A stretch of 64,000 nucleotides of DNA, taken from the NCBI RefSeq assembly GCF_022919155.1, contig NZ_CP095045.1:2480001-2544000 (forward strand), given 5' to 3'. The notes beneath the pieces were generated by a model. It had not been told where the DNA came from and did no database searches. It was given only the letters and a program-made list of their open reading frames with translations. Numbering within the stretch: the first letter of the stretch is position 1; every line of letters begins with the position of its first letter. The DNA comes from Leucobacter allii (GTDB lineage: Bacteria; Actinomycetota; Actinomycetes; Actinomycetales; Microbacteriaceae). Position numbers and translations under genes: made by a program. Positions 7,360 to 19,492 of this stretch are shown here, in pieces.

Positions 7360-8673
7360 TCATGCCCGGGCGAAGAAGGCCCCCACGGCGCGGGCGAGGC
7401 CGTGCAGGTCGTCGACGTGGGCGAGCTCCCTGGCCGAGTGCATCGACAGCAGCGGCACGCCGACGTCAACGGTGCGGATCCCGATCCGCGTGGCCGTGAG
7501 CGGGCCGATCGTGGAGCCGCACGGCACCGTGTTGTGGGAGACGAAGGTCTGCGTCGCGACGCCGGCCTCCGCGCAGACGGCGCGCCAGAGCGCCGCGCCG
7601 TGGGCGTCGCTGGCGTAGCGCTGATTCGCGTTCGTCTTCAGCATCGGGCCGCGGCCCGCGAGCGGGCGGACCCGGGGGTCGTGCTTCTCGCCGTAGTTCG
7701 GGTGCACGGAGTGGCCGGCGTCCGCCGAGAGGCACCACGAGGACGCGAGTGCTCGGGCGGCCGCCTCGGCGTCCGCGCCGAGCCCCGCGCGCAGACGGCC
7801 GAGCACCTCCTCGAGGAACGGTCCCGAGGCGCCCGAGCGTGACGCCGAGCCGAGCTCCTCGTGGTCGAAGGCGGCGAGCACGGCGATCGTGCCGGGGGCG
7901 GGCTCCGATTCGAGGAGCGCCGTGAGCCCGGCGAAGGTCGAGCTCAGATTATCCATCCGCGCCGAGGCGAGGAGCTCGCCCGAGACGCCGATGCGCTCGG
8001 CCCGCTGCGTGTCGTACAGCCGCACGTCGGTGCCGGCGATGTCCTCCGCTGCGACGGCGGGCGCACTGCCGGGCGCGACCGCGTTCGCGGCCTCGGCGAG
8101 CAGATCGAACACCCCGACGCCGGTCGCCTCCGCGGCGAGCACGGGCTGCACGTGGCGCTGCCGGTCGAGGGCGAGCCCGCTGTTCTGCTCGCGGTCGAGG
8201 TGGATGGCGAGCTGCGGGATGCGGGCGACGGCGCGGGTGCGCACGAGATGCTCGGCGCCGTCCCGGGTCACCACGCGGCCGGCGAAGCCGAGATCCCGGT
8301 CGAGCCAGGAGCTCAGGAGCGGGCCGCCGTAGATCTCCACGCCGACCTGCGCCCATCCGTCCGAGACGAAGTCGGGCTCGGGTTTGAGCACGAAACCGGG
8401 CGAGTCGGTGTGCGCGCCGAGGATCCGCACGGGGCTCGTCGCCGTGATGCCTGCGCCCGCCCGCCACGCGATGATCGCGCCGTCGCGCACGACGAAGCCG
8501 CGGGCGCCGGGCTCGAGCGCGGGCCACGCCGCCGTCTCGTCGTGCGCGGCGAAGCCGGCCGCCGCGAGCGCGTCGGCGGCGCTCCGAGCCGCATGGTACG
8601 AGCTCGGCGACGCCGAGACGAAACCGGCGAGCGCATCGATGTAGCCGTCGCGCTGGGCGAGCAGCCCGGGCAC
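7360..8673 (-). CDS. M18 family aminopeptidase
   Basis: 437-residue cytoplasmic metallo-aminopeptidase of family M18 (aspartyl aminopeptidase type), removing N-terminal residues from peptides. Metal and catalytic motifs are visible: GAHTDSPGF near residue 90, FDHEELGSASRSGA with the acidic pair, DAGHSVHPNYGEKHDP, and the C-terminal SHNTVPCGSTIGP. The length is normal for the family. The GTG at 8673 lies 4 nt after the stop of the leucyl aminopeptidase gene, with GGGGGAG in front, so the two peptidase genes form one operon. Together they cover acidic and general N-terminal residues in peptide recycling. Confidence 0.92.
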   Translation of the reverse strand: MPGLLAQRDGYIDALAGFVSASPSSYHAARSAADALAAAGFAAHDETAAWPALEPGARGFVVRDGAIIAWRAGAGITATSPVRILGAHTDSPGFVLKPEPDFVSDGWAQVGVEIYGGPLLSSWLDRDLGFAGRVVTRDGAEHLVRTRAVARIPQLAIHLDREQNSGLALDRQRHVQPVLAAEATGVGVFDLLAEAANAVAPGSAPAVAAEDIAGTDVRLYDTQRAERIGVSGELLASARMDNLSSTFAGLTALLESEPAPGTIAVLAAFDHEELGSASRSGASGPFLEEVLGRLRAGLGADAEAAARALASSWCLSADAGHSVHPNYGEKHDPRVRPLAGRGPMLKTNANQRYASDAHGAALWRAVCAEAGVATQTFVSHNTVPCGSTIGPLTATRIGIRTVDVGVPLLSMHSARELAHVDDLHGLARAVGAFFARA

Positions 8674-8677
8674 GTCG

Positions 8678-10204
8678 CTACTCCCCCGCCGCGCCGTCGA
8701 CCGGCTTCTCGAATGCCGCGGCGAACTCGGCGAGCAGGCGGGCTCCGAACCCGGTCGAGCCGGTGGAACGCCAGAGGTCGTCGCTCTCGGCCTGCATGGT
8801 GCCGGCGATGTCGAGGTGGCCCCAGGGCAGCCCGTCCACGAACTCGTTGAGGAAGAGCGCCGCGAGGATCACTCCGGCGTACTGCCCGCCGATGTTCGAG
8901 AGGTCGGCGACGTTCGACTTCAGCTGATCGCGGTAGCGGTGGTCGAGCGGGAGCCGCCAGATGTTCTCGTCGCTCGCGTCCGCCGCGGCCTGCAGCTGAG
9001 CGGCGACCGCGTCGTCGTTCGCGAGCATCGCCGCGGTCCGGGTGCCGAGCGCCGCCATCGCGGCGCCCGTGAGTGTCGCGATGTCCACGATCGCGTCGGG
9101 GCGGACCGCCTCCTCCGTGGCGAGCACCAGGCCGTCGGCCATCACCAGACGCCCCTCGGCGTCCGTGTTCTTGACCTCCACGGTCGTGCCGCCGCGGATG
9201 GTGAGCACGTCGCCGAGCTTCGTCGCGCTGCCCGAGGGCATGTTGTCGGTGCACATCAGCCAGCCTGTGACCGCCGTCGTGGCGCCGAGCTCGGCGAGCG
9301 AGGTCATCGCGGCGAAGACCGCGGCGGCGCCCATCATGTCGAACTTCATCGCGGCGTGCATGGCGTTGGAGGGCTTCAGACTGATCCCGCCGGAGTCGTA
9401 CATGATGCCCTTGCCGATGAGGGCGAGATGCCCCTCGGCGTCGGCCGGGCGGTAGGAGACCTTGATCATCCGCGGTTCCTCGGTGCTGCCGGCGTTGACG
9501 CCGAGCAGGCCGCCCGTGCCGAGCTCCATGAGCGCCTCGCGGTCGAAGACCTCGGCGGTCAGGCCGAACTCCGGCGCGAGCCGCTCGACGACCTCGGCGA
9601 ACTTCACGGCGCTCAGATGGCGCGGCGGCGTGTTCGCGAGGTCGCGGGCGATGGCCGCCGTGCGGGCGAGCACGAGCCCGCGCTCGATGCCGGCCTCGGC
9701 CGCCTCGGCGCGATCCGCCGGCAGCCGCAGCGCGAGCTCCTCGAGCGGCACGGTCTTCGGCTCGCTCTTGAGCGCGTCGTAGCGGTAGCGCGCGAGCACG
9801 GCGCCCTCGATCGCGGCCTGCACCGCGACCTCCACGTCCCAGTCCCCGCCGTCGAGCACGCCGGTGAGATCGACCGCGATCCGGTCGCACTCGCGGGCCG
9901 CGCGGGTGAATGCGGCGACGGCGTCGCGCAGCTGCGCGTCGGTCTCGATCCCCTCGCCGGAGCCGACGAGGATGCGCAGCGGCGCACCGGGGAGCACGAG
10001 CGTCTGATTCGCGGCGCCGGTGAAGCCCGCGGCCTCGAGCCCGCCGCGGTCGACGCCGTCGAGCCCCTCGGGCAGCGCCCCGGAGGCGGTCACGAGCACG
10101 GCCAGCGCCCCGGGGTCGCGCGGCGCCTCGGCGGACACGGCGACGCGGGTGGTGCGCGCGAGGGAGGGGACCGGATCGAATGCGGGGTCAATCACAACGC
10201 TCAT
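8678..10204 (-). CDS. pepA: Leucyl aminopeptidase, M17 family
   Basis: 508-residue cytosolic two-metal aminopeptidase. The N-terminal macrodomain-like part is followed by the catalytic domain. This has GKGIMYDSGGISLKPS near residue 265 with a metal-binding Lys and Asp, FDMMGAAAV, CTDNMPSG, and the family signature NTDAEGRL near residue 345. Length and motif order match PepA. The ATG at 10204 is 7 nt from TAGGCT and also has a weak GGAG; open reading continues far upstream only as a frame artefact of high GC. It is followed by the M18 gene in one transcription unit. Confidence 0.93.
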   Translation of the reverse strand: MSVVIDPAFDPVPSLARTTRVAVSAEAPRDPGALAVLVTASGALPEGLDGVDRGGLEAAGFTGAANQTLVLPGAPLRILVGSGEGIETDAQLRDAVAAFTRAARECDRIAVDLTGVLDGGDWDVEVAVQAAIEGAVLARYRYDALKSEPKTVPLEELALRLPADRAEAAEAGIERGLVLARTAAIARDLANTPPRHLSAVKFAEVVERLAPEFGLTAEVFDREALMELGTGGLLGVNAGSTEEPRMIKVSYRPADAEGHLALIGKGIMYDSGGISLKPSNAMHAAMKFDMMGAAAVFAAMTSLAELGATTAVTGWLMCTDNMPSGSATKLGDVLTIRGGTTVEVKNTDAEGRLVMADGLVLATEEAVRPDAIVDIATLTGAAMAALGTRTAAMLANDDAVAAQLQAAADASDENIWRLPLDHRYRDQLKSNVADLSNIGGQYAGVILAALFLNEFVDGLPWGHLDIAGTMQAESDDLWRSTGSTGFGARLLAEFAAAFEKPVDGAAGE

Positions 10205-12660: not shown

Positions 12661-13710
12661 ATGAGAGCATTCGGATTCCTGTCCTTCGGGCACTACGGCC
12701 CCGTCCCCGGCTCGCGCGTGCGGACGGCCGGCGACATGCTGCGGCAGACCATCGAGATCGCCGAGGGCGCCGACGAGATCGGCGTGAACGGCGCGTACGT
12801 GCGCGTGCACCACTTCGCGCGGCAGGCGGCATCACCGATCCCGCTGCTCACCGCGATGGCCGCGCGCACGCGGCGCATCGAGGTGGGCACCGGCGTGATC
12901 GACATGCGGTACGAGAACCCGCTGTACTTCGCCGAGGAGGCGGCGGCGCTCGACCTCATCGCCGAGAACCGGATCGCGCTCGGCGTGAGCCGGGGGTCCC
13001 CCGAGCCCGCGCTGCGCGGCTACGAGAACTTCGGGTATCACGGGGCGCAGGATCCGCGGGGCGCCGACCTCGCCAGGGAGAAGTTCGAGCTCTTCCTGCG
13101 CGCCGTCGACGGCGAGGCGCTCGCCGAGAGCGACCCGCAGATGGCACCGCCCGGGCGGCTGCCGATCGAGCCGCGCTCCCCCGGTCTGCGCGACCGCATC
13201 TGGTGGGGCGCGGGATCCCGCGAGTCCGCGGAGCAGGTCGGGCGCCAGGGGCTCAACCTCATGAGCTCCACGCTGCTCACCGAGGCGACCGGCGAGGCCT
13301 TCCACGTGCTGCAGCGGCAGCAGATCGAGGGGTTCCGCGAGGCGTACCGGGAGGCCGGGCACCGCGGTACGCCGCGGGTCTCGGTGAGCCGCAGCGTCTT
13401 CCCGATCGTGAGCGCGGAGGACGAGCAGTACTTCGGGCTGCGCGGGCGCGACGGGCAGGATCAGATCGGCGTGATCGACGGCTTCAGGTCCACCTTCGGC
13501 AAGACCTACGCCGACACTCCCGACCGGCTCATCGAGCAGCTCAGGGCCGACGAGGCCGTCATGGCCGCGGACACCCTGATGCTCACGATCCCGAACCAGT
13601 TGGGTGTTGCTTATTGTGTACATATCCTGGAATCGTTCGCCCAGTATGTAGCGCCTGAGCTTGGTTGGAAGCCGAACACAGAGGGCCCCGTCGAGGGATA
13701 CGCGATCTAA
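12661..13710 (+). CDS. LLM-class flavin-dependent oxidoreductase with a replaced 3' end
   Basis: 349-residue luciferase-like TIM-barrel monooxygenase or dehydrogenase using FMNH2 or F420. It opens with MRAFGFLSFGHYG, has IEVGTGVIDMRYENPLYFAEEAA near residue 80, RIALGVSRGSPEPALRGY near 105-122, and DRIWWGAGSRESAEQVGRQG near 180, a standard LLM layout. The substrate is not readable. Up to about codon 310 (13590) composition matches the chromosome. The last 39 codons (13591-13707) use AT-rich codons unlike the rest. The original version of these 39 codons lies 662 bp downstream, beyond a foreign GNAT gene. The protein stays full length, so it is probably functional. Confidence 0.9.
   Translation: MRAFGFLSFGHYGPVPGSRVRTAGDMLRQTIEIAEGADEIGVNGAYVRVHHFARQAASPIPLLTAMAARTRRIEVGTGVIDMRYENPLYFAEEAAALDLIAENRIALGVSRGSPEPALRGYENFGYHGAQDPRGADLAREKFELFLRAVDGEALAESDPQMAPPGRLPIEPRSPGLRDRIWWGAGSRESAEQVGRQGLNLMSSTLLTEATGEAFHVLQRQQIEGFREAYREAGHRGTPRVSVSRSVFPIVSAEDEQYFGLRGRDGQDQIGVIDGFRSTFGKTYADTPDRLIEQLRADEAVMAADTLMLTIPNQLGVAYCVHILESFAQYVAPELGWKPNTEGPVEGYAI
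13590..13604 (+). repeat. Left copy of a 15-bp imperfect direct repeat bounding the inserted module
   Basis: CCCGAACCAGTTGGG, matching 14252-14266 (CCCGAATCAGCTCGG) at 12 of 15 positions, with the central CCCGAA-CAG shared. Base composition switches from chromosomal to foreign-like just to its right. It is a candidate attL-like junction or the point of homologous exchange. Confidence 0.65.
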
Positions 13711-13734
13711 GGCCAGTGTCCTTTGGGGTCTAGG

Positions 13735-13740
13735 TAGACT
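13735..13740 (+). promoter_or_regulatory. Possible -10 for the inserted GNAT gene
   Basis: TAGACT, 9 nt before the GTG start. It overlaps a 5-bp inverted repeat (GTCTA-GG-TAGAC, 13728-13739). No Shine-Dalgarno site is seen, so leaderless expression is possible. Confidence 0.4.
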
Positions 13741-13749
13741 GACGAAACT

Positions 13750-14250
13750 GTGAGTACGACTCCGCAACACCCAAGCATCCGCCCCTACCAGGCTGACGAC
13801 GCTACGACCACGCTGAGGATTTTCACGGCGGCGATCACAAAGACCGCTGCGGCTGACTACTCGCCAGAGCAAGTCCAGGCCTGGGCCCAACCGGGCCAGC
13901 GAGATGCCACAGGGTGGCACCTCGCCATGCGCAAGCGAAACAGTTTTGTCGCCACTGCGAACAGTGAGGTCGTTGGGTTTTCCGATGTCAATGTGCATGG
14001 ATACATCGACATGATGTTTGTTGATCCCCAACACCAGAGACAAGGAGTGGCGCGCGCGCTTCTTGAGGAGGCGGAAAGGCAAGCGAGAGAACTCGGCGCG
14101 GCAAGCCTCACTGCCGATGTCAGCATCACTGCTCGACCTTTCTTCGAGAGACACGGATTCTTCGTTGAGCACCGACAGGAACCTGTCAAGCAAGGAGTGA
14201 AGCTCGTGAACTTTCGAATGCGAAAAGCACTGTATGAGGAACACCAATAG
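13750..14250 (+). CDS. GNAT N-acetyltransferase, YafP-like, horizontally acquired
   Basis: 166-residue acetyl-CoA-dependent transferase. The fold starts with SIRPYQADDATTTLRIF and reads DYSPEQVQAWA near residue 37. It has the GNAT acetyl-CoA motif MMFVDPQHQRQGVARALL near residues 88-105 and the C-terminal ITARPFFERHGFFVEHRQE. These features match the YafP group, whose members sit on genomes and on mobile cassettes; the physiological substrate is not known. Codon use (TTT, AAA, GTT, ACA) is foreign to this chromosome. The GTG start lacks a Shine-Dalgarno site. It is the only complete gene in the inserted module. Confidence 0.88.
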   Translation: MSTTPQHPSIRPYQADDATTTLRIFTAAITKTAAADYSPEQVQAWAQPGQRDATGWHLAMRKRNSFVATANSEVVGFSDVNVHGYIDMMFVDPQHQRQGVARALLEEAERQARELGAASLTADVSITARPFFERHGFFVEHRQEPVKQGVKLVNFRMRKALYEEHQ

Positions 14251-14251
14251 A

Positions 14252-14266
14252 CCCGAATCAGCTCGG
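14252..14266 (+). repeat. Right copy of the 15-bp imperfect direct repeat
   Basis: CCCGAATCAGCTCGG, one base after the GNAT stop codon. From here rightward the sequence returns to chromosomal composition and continues as the displaced LLM 3' end. It pairs with 13590-13604. Confidence 0.65.
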
Positions 14267-14372
14267 CCCCGAGTACAACCTGCACGTGCTGCAGGCCTTC
14301 GCCGAGCACGTCGCGCCGGCCCTCGGCTGGAAGCCGAACACGGAGGGGCCCGTCACGGGCGACGCGATCTGA
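14253..14372 (+). pseudogene. Displaced original 3' end of the LLM oxidoreductase gene
   Basis: Forty codons including TGA, without a start. They encode PNQLGPEYNLHVLQAFAEHV and continue to a terminal PVTGDAI, aligning without gaps to the last 39 residues of the functional gene (27 of 39 identical by my count). Codons are GC-rich like the chromosome. Joining 13590 directly to 14253 restores an intact, same-length gene, so this is the ancestral end that the insertion pushed downstream. No promoter or ribosome-binding site of its own is seen. Confidence 0.88.
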
Positions 14373-17110: not shown

Positions 17111-18403
17111 ATGATTCACGACGGCTCGGCGATCCAGATCGGCTACTCCGCGGTGCGGCGCACGTCGCTGCGCGCGCATCCGGGCGTGCTCGAGATCGTC
17201 CTCGTCCTCCGCGGTGCGCTCGACGTCACGGTGAGCTGCGAGCGCTTCGCGCTGCGCGAGGGGGACTACGCCGTGCTCAACGCGGGGGATCCGCATCTGC
17301 TCGTCGGTTCGGCGGACAACGCGACCGCGATCCTGCAGCTGCGCCTCGAGGAGTTCGCGGATCATGTGCCCGGACTCGGAGGGGTGATCTTCGCCTGCGA
17401 GTCGTTCGACCTGCCTCGCTTCCGGCGCACCGAGAACTCGCTGCGCCGGAGGATCCTGGACGTCCTGCTGGCCGCGCCGGGCCACGATCTCGAACGCGCC
17501 GCCGCGCTGCTCGCCGAGCTCGCGGACGGGTACGCCTTCGAGGACTACTACGAGCGACGGCGCAGTCCGAGCCGCGCCCGGCGGCTGCAGTTCAGGCAGC
17601 TCGTGATCGCCATGCAGGACCGGATCGCCGAACGCGACGTGCTCGACCAGATCGCCACGGGGCTGCACTACCGCAAGGCATCGCTCTCGCGCATCGTGCG
17701 CGAGACGACCGCGGTCAGCTTCAGCGATCTCCTCACCTACTTGCGGGTCAGCGCCGCGGAACGGAAGCTGGTCCGAGACGACGCGACCGTCGCGCAGATC
17801 GCGGCCGAATGCGGGTTCTCCGATCTGAAGTACCTGACCCGGGCCTTCCGCGCCTGGTTCGGAGAATCCCCCGCCGACTATCGCCGTCGCACCCGCGGGC
17901 TCGTCGAGGCCGATGATGAGGCTCCGCCGTGCCGCGAGCTCGGGCGGTCCCTGGCCGAGGCGCTTCGCGGCGCGGAGCAGGCCGAGCAGCGGCCGTCGCG
18001 CCTCAGCATCACGCCGCTGCTGGTGAAGAACCTGGGCGGGCGGGCGGATCTCTTCCGCACGGTGGCCGAGCTCGCGCGCGCACCGGAGATGCCCGAGCGG
18101 ATCACGACCCCGCCCAGGCCGCATCTGCTGCCGGTCCGCGTGCCTGCCGGAGGCGCCCCGCCGCTCGATTGGGTGGCGGTGATCCGCGGGATCGACCGGG
18201 AGAGCTTCCGGCCGGTGCTCATCCTGCCCGTCGCCGACGCGGACCTCGCCCGGACGGTCGCGGGCGAGGTGATCGCCGCAGGGGAGGACGACGTGGAGTA
18301 CTGGCTCGCCTACGAGGGCGGTCTCGGCGCCGCGGCCGATGGGCTCGCGGAACGGCTGCGCGCCGAGCTCGGCGTGGAAGCCGTACCGATGCGCGTGGGG
18401 TGA
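17111..18403 (+). CDS. AraC family transcriptional regulator with an extra C-terminal domain
   Basis: 430-residue regulator. The N-terminal 80 residues form a cupin-like sensor (REGDYAVLNAGDPHLLVG). The AraC double helix-turn-helix spans about residues 160-262 (DQIATGLHYRKASLSRIVRE, then VAQIAAECGFSDLKYLTRAF and FGESPADYRRR). A further 165 residues follow, ending in LAYEGGLGAAADGLAERLRA; I do not recognise this part, which may be a second ligand-binding or dimerisation domain. Most AraC proteins end at the helix-turn-helix, so this extension is unusual. The position after the amidohydrolase gene suggests control of that unit. Confidence 0.85.
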   Translation: MIHDGSAIQIGYSAVRRTSLRAHPGVLEIVLVLRGALDVTVSCERFALREGDYAVLNAGDPHLLVGSADNATAILQLRLEEFADHVPGLGGVIFACESFDLPRFRRTENSLRRRILDVLLAAPGHDLERAAALLAELADGYAFEDYYERRRSPSRARRLQFRQLVIAMQDRIAERDVLDQIATGLHYRKASLSRIVRETTAVSFSDLLTYLRVSAAERKLVRDDATVAQIAAECGFSDLKYLTRAFRAWFGESPADYRRRTRGLVEADDEAPPCRELGRSLAEALRGAEQAEQRPSRLSITPLLVKNLGGRADLFRTVAELARAPEMPERITTPPRPHLLPVRVPAGGAPPLDWVAVIRGIDRESFRPVLILPVADADLARTVAGEVIAAGEDDVEYWLAYEGGLGAAADGLAERLRAELGVEAVPMRVG

Positions 18404-18491
18404 TCCGCTCGACCGGGTGAGGTCGGAGGGCCTCGACCCCCGGAGCCGCCGCGCGTCCCGATCTCGCCGTGACGAGTGGGAGACTGGGAGC

Positions 18492-18953
18492 ATGCGCGAT
18501 ACCGAGCCCCGGCCGACGATCCGCCCCTGCGCGGGCCCAGAGGAGTACCCGGCTCTCGTGGAGATCTGGCGGAGCGCCGTGCGGGCGACCCACCACTTCC
18601 TGGCCGACTCCGACTTCGCCCGGATCGAGGGCGCCCTCGCCACGGGGTATTTCCCCGCGGTGGCCCTGATCGTGGCCGAGCGCGACGGTCGTGCCCTCGG
18701 CTTCGCCGGGGTCTCCGACGGGAACCTGGAGATGCTGTTCGTCGCGGACGCGGCCCGCGGCACCGGCGTCGGCACGGCACTGCTGGAGGAGGCCGTGACA
18801 CGGCACGGCGTCGTCCGCGTCGACGTCAACGAGCAGAACCCCGAGGCGCTCGCCTTCTACCTGGCGCGCGGCTTCGCGCCGCAGGGGCGGAGCGAGCGCG
18901 ACGGTGACGGCCGTCCGTACCCCGTGCGGCACCTCGCGAGGGCCGAGCGGTGA
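18492..18953 (+). CDS. GNAT family N-acetyltransferase
   Basis: 153-residue acetyltransferase. It has EIWRSAVRATHHFLADSDFA near residues 22-41 and the acetyl-CoA loop LFVADAARGTGVGTALLEEA near residues 77-96, followed by VRVDVNEQNPEALAFYLARG. The pattern resembles acetyltransferases of the YjaB/PA4866 type, but the substrate is unknown. The ATG at 18492 follows GGGAG. Codon use is native, unlike the GNAT gene at 13750. Its stop overlaps the TPR gene start as GTGA. Confidence 0.85.
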   Translation: MRDTEPRPTIRPCAGPEEYPALVEIWRSAVRATHHFLADSDFARIEGALATGYFPAVALIVAERDGRALGFAGVSDGNLEMLFVADAARGTGVGTALLEEAVTRHGVVRVDVNEQNPEALAFYLARGFAPQGRSERDGDGRPYPVRHLARAER

Positions 18954-19492
18954 CCGGCTCCTGGGAGGCGCGGATCGACGCCTACTGGGCGACCGCGGAC
19001 GACGCCCGCCCGGAGGAGGCGCTGCGGGAGATGCGCGCGCTGGTCTCCGAGCGGCCCGCCGACGATCCCGACGCGCTCTACGAATGGGCGTCGGTGCACG
19101 ACTTCCTCGGGCGCGAGCGGGAGGCCGTCCCGCTGTACGAGGCCGCGCTCCGCGCCGGGCTCGCCGGCGACCGCGAACGCCAGGCGGTGATCCAGCTCGC
19201 GAGCTCGCTCCGGAACACGGGACGTCCCGAGGAGGCGATCCGGCTGCTGCGGGACCGCCCCGCGGCGGCTTCCCCGGATGCGACCGTCGTCGGGGACGCC
19301 CCGCGGGCCTTCCTCGCGCTCGCGCTGCGGGACGCGGGGCGAACGGACGAGGCGCTCCGCGTCGCGCTGACGGCGCTCGCCCGCACGCTGCCCCGGTACC
19401 GTGCCGCCGTCGAGCGCTACGCGGAGGAGCTCATCGAGGCGCCCGCTGCGGATCCTCTCGACCCGCCGCAGCCGCGCTACATCTCGAGATAG
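18950..19492 (+). CDS. Tetratricopeptide repeat protein
   Basis: 180-residue helical-repeat protein, probably a cytoplasmic scaffold. Repeats are visible at about residues 20-50 (PEEALREMRALVSERPADDP), 52-70 (EREAVPLYEAALRAGL), 78-100 (LASSLRNTGRPEEAIRLLRD) and 118-140 (LALALRDAGRTDEALRVALT). A similar single-gene TPR family occurs in many bacteria without known function. It is translationally coupled to the preceding GNAT gene. The last 16 nt overlap the 3' end of the convergent SRPBCC gene. Confidence 0.85.
   Translation: MTGSWEARIDAYWATADDARPEEALREMRALVSERPADDPDALYEWASVHDFLGREREAVPLYEAALRAGLAGDRERQAVIQLASSLRNTGRPEEAIRLLRDRPAAASPDATVVGDAPRAFLALALRDAGRTDEALRVALTALARTLPRYRAAVERYAEELIEAPAADPLDPPQPRYISR

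Follow-up and report, generated by a model that had tools for sequence, protein, structure and literature searches.

How can a gene receive foreign DNA close to its 3' end and still encode a protein of full length, and what brings such DNA there? The question is raised by an LLM-class oxidoreductase gene (PF00296) of Leucobacter allii, which lies in the 64,000-nucleotide stretch of contig NZ_CP095045.1 analysed here and referred to as the window. The native body of the gene extends to codon 310 (12661-13590) and is followed, in frame, by an alternative, element-derived version of the last 40 codons (13591-13710); the gene in use, with this tail included, thus occupies 12661-13710. A spacer of 39 nt (13711-13749) leads to a cargo gene for a GNAT acetyltransferase of 166 aa (13750-14250; GTG start; PF13673, PF00583 and PF13508), and behind it come the LLM gene's own final 40 codons, native but displaced (14253-14372). 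All of these features are on the plus strand. Both tails consist of 40 codons including the stop, and they align without a gap, with 82 of 120 nucleotides and 27 of 39 residues identical; on recomputation the values given in an earlier note on this DNA were obtained again. The tails lie 662 bp apart, which is the period of the unit, and both start in the core CCCGAAYCAG, the left copy of which (CCCGAACCAG) is found at 13590-13599 and the right copy (CCCGAATCAG, plus strand) at 14252-14261. This short core is all that attL and attR have in common in the window; of the 42 nucleotides at positions 9-50, 21 differ. The unit harbors a single GNAT open reading frame and no recombinase.

The block between the native body and the displaced tail is lower in GC, as the same note had stated. 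The GC content is 0.72 in the LLM body, 0.54 in the alternative tail, 0.57 in the GNAT gene and 0.71 in the displaced tail, and the corresponding GC3 values are 0.96, 0.60, 0.62 and 0.95. The LLM gene has full-length homologues in the genus that are 77-91% identical. The displaced tail is closest to native Leucobacter tails (identity 0.93 and 0.90). The tail in use is closest to the alien tails of genome G108 (0.84) and of Leucobacter tardus (0.82), and the reverse grouping was not observed. Nor do all close relatives have the same arrangement at native composition. The closest relative of the GNAT cargo, at 90% identity, comes from Microbacterium sp. NPDC076768, and another, at 82%, from Leucobacter sp. 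HY1910. The proposal of an insertion at the 3' end that brought a replacement tail and foreign cargo, and that contains no recombinase, stands in all its parts. Two other stretches of the window have counterparts elsewhere: positions 13535-13564 have a 30-bp, 90% match in the same genome (G000:C1:399169-399198, L002), and 18339-19492, with a GNAT and a TPR-like gene of native GC, forms a loose cluster with cargo-type genes of other LLM arrays.

Codon 311 of the LLM gene is an integration hotspot in the Microbacteriaceae. A profile of the tail matches 52 of 54 Leucobacter genomes (all save G001 and G026), and 11 of the 54 have displaced tails downstream of the LLM gene, 18 tails in total; 14 of 17 such tails located with nhmmer start within 7 nt of the same codon. 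One genome, G035, contains three displaced tails, at spacings of 909, 733 and 577 bp. In Microbacterium, the tail is found in 358 of 366 genomes (E 1e-5). Stretches from 16 of these genomes were inspected, and 13 proved to have a displaced copy at codon 311; for the 366 this is a lower bound, because 15 of the 18 genomes with two or more tail hits were covered and three (G507, G543 and G662) were left out. The 13 also exclude G714, whose second copy begins to match at codon 284, and G608, which matches at codons 322-349 only, and both of these are nonetheless included in the unit table, the arm tests and the tail-position comparison below; G705 has a single tail despite being listed with multiple hits. 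Weaker rows are G751 (24 residues), G764 (by nhmmer alone) and G665 (the Microbacterium sp. 13-71-7 contig, displaced tail only). Elsewhere in the family, 17 non-Leucobacter genomes have at least two tail hits; of the three inspected, G395 and G142 add two further genera with displaced tails, and G115 has one tail.

The displaced copies are more than chance matches. When each gene's own tail was searched for within 9 kb downstream at 53 loci, copies scoring at least 30 were found at 10 loci, on the coding strand only and with scores of 30-90, whereas seven further pieces of the LLM gene, each of 120 bp and used as controls, did not exceed 26, and the minus strand did not exceed 21. A control value of 120 in L067 is a slicing artefact, because that contig begins within the LLM gene, and the displaced tail of L. 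tardus lies outside the 9-kb range. Throughout the genus a variable block of small genes separates the LLM gene from a conserved gene set. The search for empty sites that the earlier note had called for yielded three pairs of relatives in which the register with an insert-free genome is kept after the displaced tail: L092/L067 over 504 bp (78%), L089/L074 over 538 bp (69%) and L069/L077 over 197 bp (74%), only some 60 bp of the last being beyond the tail. The empty site of the window unit itself was not found among the loci searched, because no searched relative has the same downstream sequence. Other cargo at the same codon, which the note had also advised to look for, was encountered in the form of many different small units in related genomes.

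Some of the elements at codon 311 encode a large serine recombinase (LSR). In L. tardus (G049), a 22.1-kb element lies between an LLM gene with a window-type tail and a displaced native tail; its LSR, of 536 aa (PF00239 and PF07508), is encoded by a gene that starts 11 bp from the displaced tail. The 11.5-kb element of G395 has an LSR that is 40% identical to that of L. tardus and starts 42 bp from the displaced tail. The 28.1-kb element of G565 and that of Microbacterium sp. 13-71-7, whose contig holds only the LSR end, have LSRs 41% and 42% identical to the L. tardus protein, with about 61-62 bp between the displaced tail and the aligned start. In all four elements the LSR gene thus adjoins the attachment site. 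When the ends of the L. tardus element are joined to rebuild attP, they give the palindrome CCCAAT-CA-ATTGGG, with TGTACAT in each arm. The matching place in the window gives the predicted left crossover dinucleotide CA at 13597-13598, in attL, and the predicted right one at 14259-14260, within the right core copy. Small serine recombinase-like open reading frames are also seen inside the elements of L. tardus, G395 and G108. The window genome (G000) has no match to an L. tardus-type LSR and contains one other PF07508 protein, 86 kb away.

The alternative tail of the window also carries a P'-like arm (TTGGGTGTTGCTTATTGTGTACATAT; 13600-13625, plus strand), and the same arm is present in L. tardus and G565, both of which are LSR-bearing. 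The signature TTGGGNNNTGCTTATTGTGNACATAT, with up to 3 mismatches allowed, occurs in 3 of 398 Microbacteriaceae genomes, a set without G565; these are the window genome, L. tardus and G108, in each case at LLM codon 311, where the P'-arm pattern matches with 0 mismatches. The reversed control pattern gave 1 match. A shorter exact pattern of the signature had no match in IMG/VR, and the alternative tail had none by blastn against plasmids and phages. On the other side, the P arms of L. tardus, G565 and 13-71-7 are mutually alike (shuffle p 0.001-0.04), and that of G395 is unlike these three (p 0.37-0.53). The right arm of the window, compared with the P arms of the four LSR elements, gave shuffle p values of 0.84, 0.02, 0.13 and 0.68. 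A P-like right arm is absent from the LSR-less units of G803, G488 and G686, and in 16 tests on four LSR-less units the weak match between the window and G565 (p 0.02) was the only one to an LSR-type P arm. An inverted repeat between the two arms is detected in G565 (p 0.0035) and L. tardus (p 0.04) but not in the window (p 0.26) or G395 (p 0.44); p is below 0.05 in 3 of 35 units.

Based on these observations, the insert in the window is most readily understood as a unit that is non-autonomous and occupies a serine-integrase hotspot. Codon 311 would serve as attB for LSR-encoding integrative elements of the Microbacteriaceae, and the element side of the att site would encode a substitute for the last 40 LLM codons, so that the target protein keeps its full length, while the original tail, now belonging to attR, would come to lie at the opposite end of the element. 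The window would contain a minimal, 662-bp member of this group, in which a P'-type replacement tail is combined with a single GNAT gene and a recombinase is lacking. We infer that an LSR was the catalyst, that the crossover took place at the CA dinucleotide and that the unit moved in trans. The enzyme would have been an LSR of the L. tardus type, which is absent from the present window genome. We consider this account, with codon 311 as attB and a minimal unit inserted at CA by such an LSR in trans, to be marginally probable. Apart from the unclear right arm of the window, it is weakened by the missing inverted repeat in G395, by the absence of an L. tardus-type LSR from G000 and by the finding, described below, that tail and cargo are mostly not passed on together. 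The earlier note had offered either a minimal mobile unit or a clean homologous exchange; the former is backed by the empty-site pairs and by the LSR-bearing elements at the same codon, and the latter is disfavoured for the reasons given below.

Small units of this sort are common at the site. In 23 of the 35 tabulated units the length is 315-1075 bp and a recombinase is absent, the range being 454-996 bp in Leucobacter and 315-1075 bp in Microbacterium, with 791 bp in G142. Most of them contain one gene; G488 and G686 have two, and in G803 (315 bp) no open reading frame was called. With the Pfam search on cargo restricted to the window, L069, L080, L084, L089, L099, L101, L105, G142 and G108, the cargo that could be named includes GNATs, a peptidase S51, an RDD protein and a TPR protein, and in larger LSR-less units a C5 methylase (L101) and a methylase with a SacI-type nuclease (G108). 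Cargo of a defence type is seen as DNA methylase genes in unit 2 of L101 and in L230 (2302-8374), accompanied in G108 by the SacI-type nuclease and an AAA_13 protein. The cargo gene ends close to the next core, at 2 bp in the window, 3 bp in G775 and 5 bp in G528, G838 and unit 2 of L084.

The same cargo also recurs. A tblastx comparison of 32 units gave eight pairs with common cargo, including a weak one (33%); in five pairs the two units are nearly equal in length. These are G764/L105 (720 and 719 bp) and G775/L092 (552 and 553 bp), both between Microbacterium and Leucobacter, and G528/G838 (619 and 622 bp), L099/L101 (733 and 727 bp) and G488/G686 (1068 and 1075 bp). The identity of the unit bodies exceeds that of the LLM genes in G528/G838 (0.92 vs 0.80) and G488/G686 (0.80 vs 0.64). 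In the other three pairs it does not (0.72 vs 0.73, 0.73 vs 0.74 and 0.63 vs 0.75), and for these the sequence identities would also fit an old common descent. In these recurring units, tail and cargo are mostly not passed on together, as the tail of the partner ranks 3 to 13 of 31. The GNAT family of the window is also found about 4 kb downstream of the LLM gene in G019 and G005. A small serine recombinase ends the 6.1-kb unit of L. edaphi (L092, oriented 8011-8601), its gene terminating 48 bp before the displaced tail. It was rejected as an integrase, since the frame is broken by a stop near the start; Asn occupies what we take to be the catalytic Ser position.

Because these units are compact and recur, movement in trans is a better fit than decay, although this is no proof. 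Decay would mean that an LSR element once sat complete at codon 311 and was later stripped of all that followed the GNAT gene as far as attR, so that attL, a single cargo gene and the displaced tail are what is left, in the manner of a CIME. Such elements are described as decayed ones that retain attL and attR (PMC5704250, in the part drawn on here), and the window has the left site and the displaced tail, no recombinase and no recognisable right P arm. Simple integration by an LSR requires a complete attP. This is not seen in the window because the right arm is not clearly P-like, and for the same reason a remnant stays beside trans movement as an explanation. It also gains from the other LSR-less units with a P' arm in which the P arm is absent or weak, and from G108, where an LSR-less element of about 7.8 kb has a window-type tail, with no displaced tail by nhmmer and no LSR match within 40 kb. 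However, the GNAT gene is complete, with its end 2 bp short of the core, and other units end just as tightly, which speaks against a remnant because a random deletion would rarely end at the core; the nearly equal lengths of the five cargo pairs point the same way. We therefore regard decay as possible but rather doubtful. It is unlikely that the cargo was inserted and that some unknown enzyme, or recombination, duplicated the host tail on either side of it, which would make the alien tail a special case. Such copying would account for the nearly identical tails of 15 of 27 genomes, a class chosen by identity at positions 9-50 (40 of 630 differ) that includes the doubtful G714, and for G528 and G838, whose bodies are 0.92 identical and whose tails are nevertheless host-specific (0.76 and 0.70). 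Against it, the window, G049, G395 and G565 have a tail in use that plainly does not resemble the host's, and within the same 15 genomes positions 1-6 differ more often than 9-50 (16 of 90, p 0.001), an excess that is expected from a crossover at positions 7-8.

A clean homologous exchange with a lower-GC relative of the same gene order finds a parallel in G047 and G046 (L. triazinivorans and L. soli), where a member of the window's GNAT family lies no more than about 100 bp behind the LLM gene, at native GC and with no displaced tail. Yet an exchange would replace the tail rather than duplicate it, and we think this origin very improbable, because many species have the boundary at the same codon and an attP-like arm is present in the alien tail. 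The one or two genes per unit, the arrays and the recurring cargo are also features of integron cassettes moved by the tyrosine recombinase IntI. In the window genome, though, the IntI model TIGR02249 gives 7 matches, all below the cut-off, the picture being similar in 14 control genomes, and it is serine recombinases, not IntI, that are found at codon 311 in the larger elements; attC sites were inspected by eye only. An integron origin of the window unit was accordingly rejected and has next to no probability.

The tails themselves hold further information on what may follow an insertion. In the 15 genomes with nearly identical positions 9-50, differences are more numerous at positions 51-96 (159 of 690). 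In this comparison the class of P-like/alien or decayed tails mixes alien and decayed ones, and the B-like class includes G789, whose two tails have another P'-like arm in common. The pattern suggests insertion at CA, positions 7-8, after which the new tail would have been converted to resemble the displaced native one; attB would thereby be restored. Conversion is inefficient between tails that are only about 75% alike. A broader, and tentative, reading that we hold to be somewhat less probable than decay of a full element is that of a gene-capture platform unrelated to integrons, in which serine integrases would place one-gene cassettes at the 3' end of the LLM gene, the new tail would be converted back from the displaced copy to regenerate attB, and the array would grow with the newest unit nearest to the LLM gene. 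Among the six Leucobacter arrays with at least two displaced tails, the tail scores drop with distance in L074, L084 and L089, drop and then level in L099 (106, 56, 21 and 28 bits), and do not drop in L092 and L101. A decay of older tails with distance was for this reason rejected as a general rule.

In some respects the LLM elements resemble systems that are already known, although a search of the open-licence literature found no title on the LLM codon-311 site. The ssrA islands of Dehalococcoides, as described in the part of PMC3146451 used here, also lie in series after one single-copy gene, bounded by copies of its 3' end, and one edge is occupied by a serine recombinase of some 540 aa. 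In these islands the serine integrase DsiB is accompanied by a small serine recombinase, DsiA, and 15 islands without an integration module have been proposed as cis-mobilizable elements (PMC3146451). However, their target is a tmRNA with a 20-bp repeat, whereas the LLM elements use a protein gene, of which 40 codons form the tail. Most LLM units, unlike the islands covered there, are also single genes of 0.3-1.1 kb. SCC, SCCmec and the enterococcus cassette chromosome (ECC) similarly involve large serine recombinases at the 3' region of a conserved gene, the ECC att repeats being about 50 bp long (PMC6222049), but the target is rlmH and the recombinases are Ccr; ECC::cat measures 32 kb, and the sections of that report consulted describe no single-gene units of the LLM kind. 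CIMEs and serine-recombinase IMEs, among which are elements that retain att sites after the loss of integration genes and that accrete in tandem, are comparable, but such IMEs disrupt their target genes, according to the relevant section of PMC5704250, whereas the 40-codon replacement preserves the gene. Integron cassettes and CALINs, in the excerpted account of PMC11389934, likewise form arrays of small units, with cargo recurring at the same site and arrays without a resident integrase. In contrast, the window genome has no integron integrase over the cut-off and the attachment sequence is protein-coding; the likeness to integrons would be one of analogy only.

The LLM gene also appears to be split at a second insertion place, around codons 81-85, in five Leucobacter genomes, G395, Janibacter corallicola and Brevibacterium sp. 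W7.2 (loci L062/L063/L135, L064, L065, L066, L067/L068, L216, L208 and L209). Another LSR family adjoins this place in most of them, its members being 87-95% identical except for L066/L183 (55%). In Actinomyces oris (L213), a full LLM gene (588-1637) is followed about 8 kb downstream by a second copy of codons 81-346 (9293-10108), and a fragment of the codon-81-type LSR adjoins the first copy; the replacement end brought by such an element, if it is one, would be much longer. LLM tails 77-85% identical are found in Paracoccus records (L181, L188 and L197), which is odd for a gene whose other occurrences here are in actinobacteria.

If LSRs at codon 311 do move small units, bacteria without integrons would have an integron-like means of gathering single genes. 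The cargo so gathered would include acetyltransferases, a peptidase and restriction-modification genes, among others, and the enzyme and its site might be usable as an integration tool. Each insertion leaves behind a copy of the same 40 codons, and the LLM locus thereby provides a readable record of successive events.
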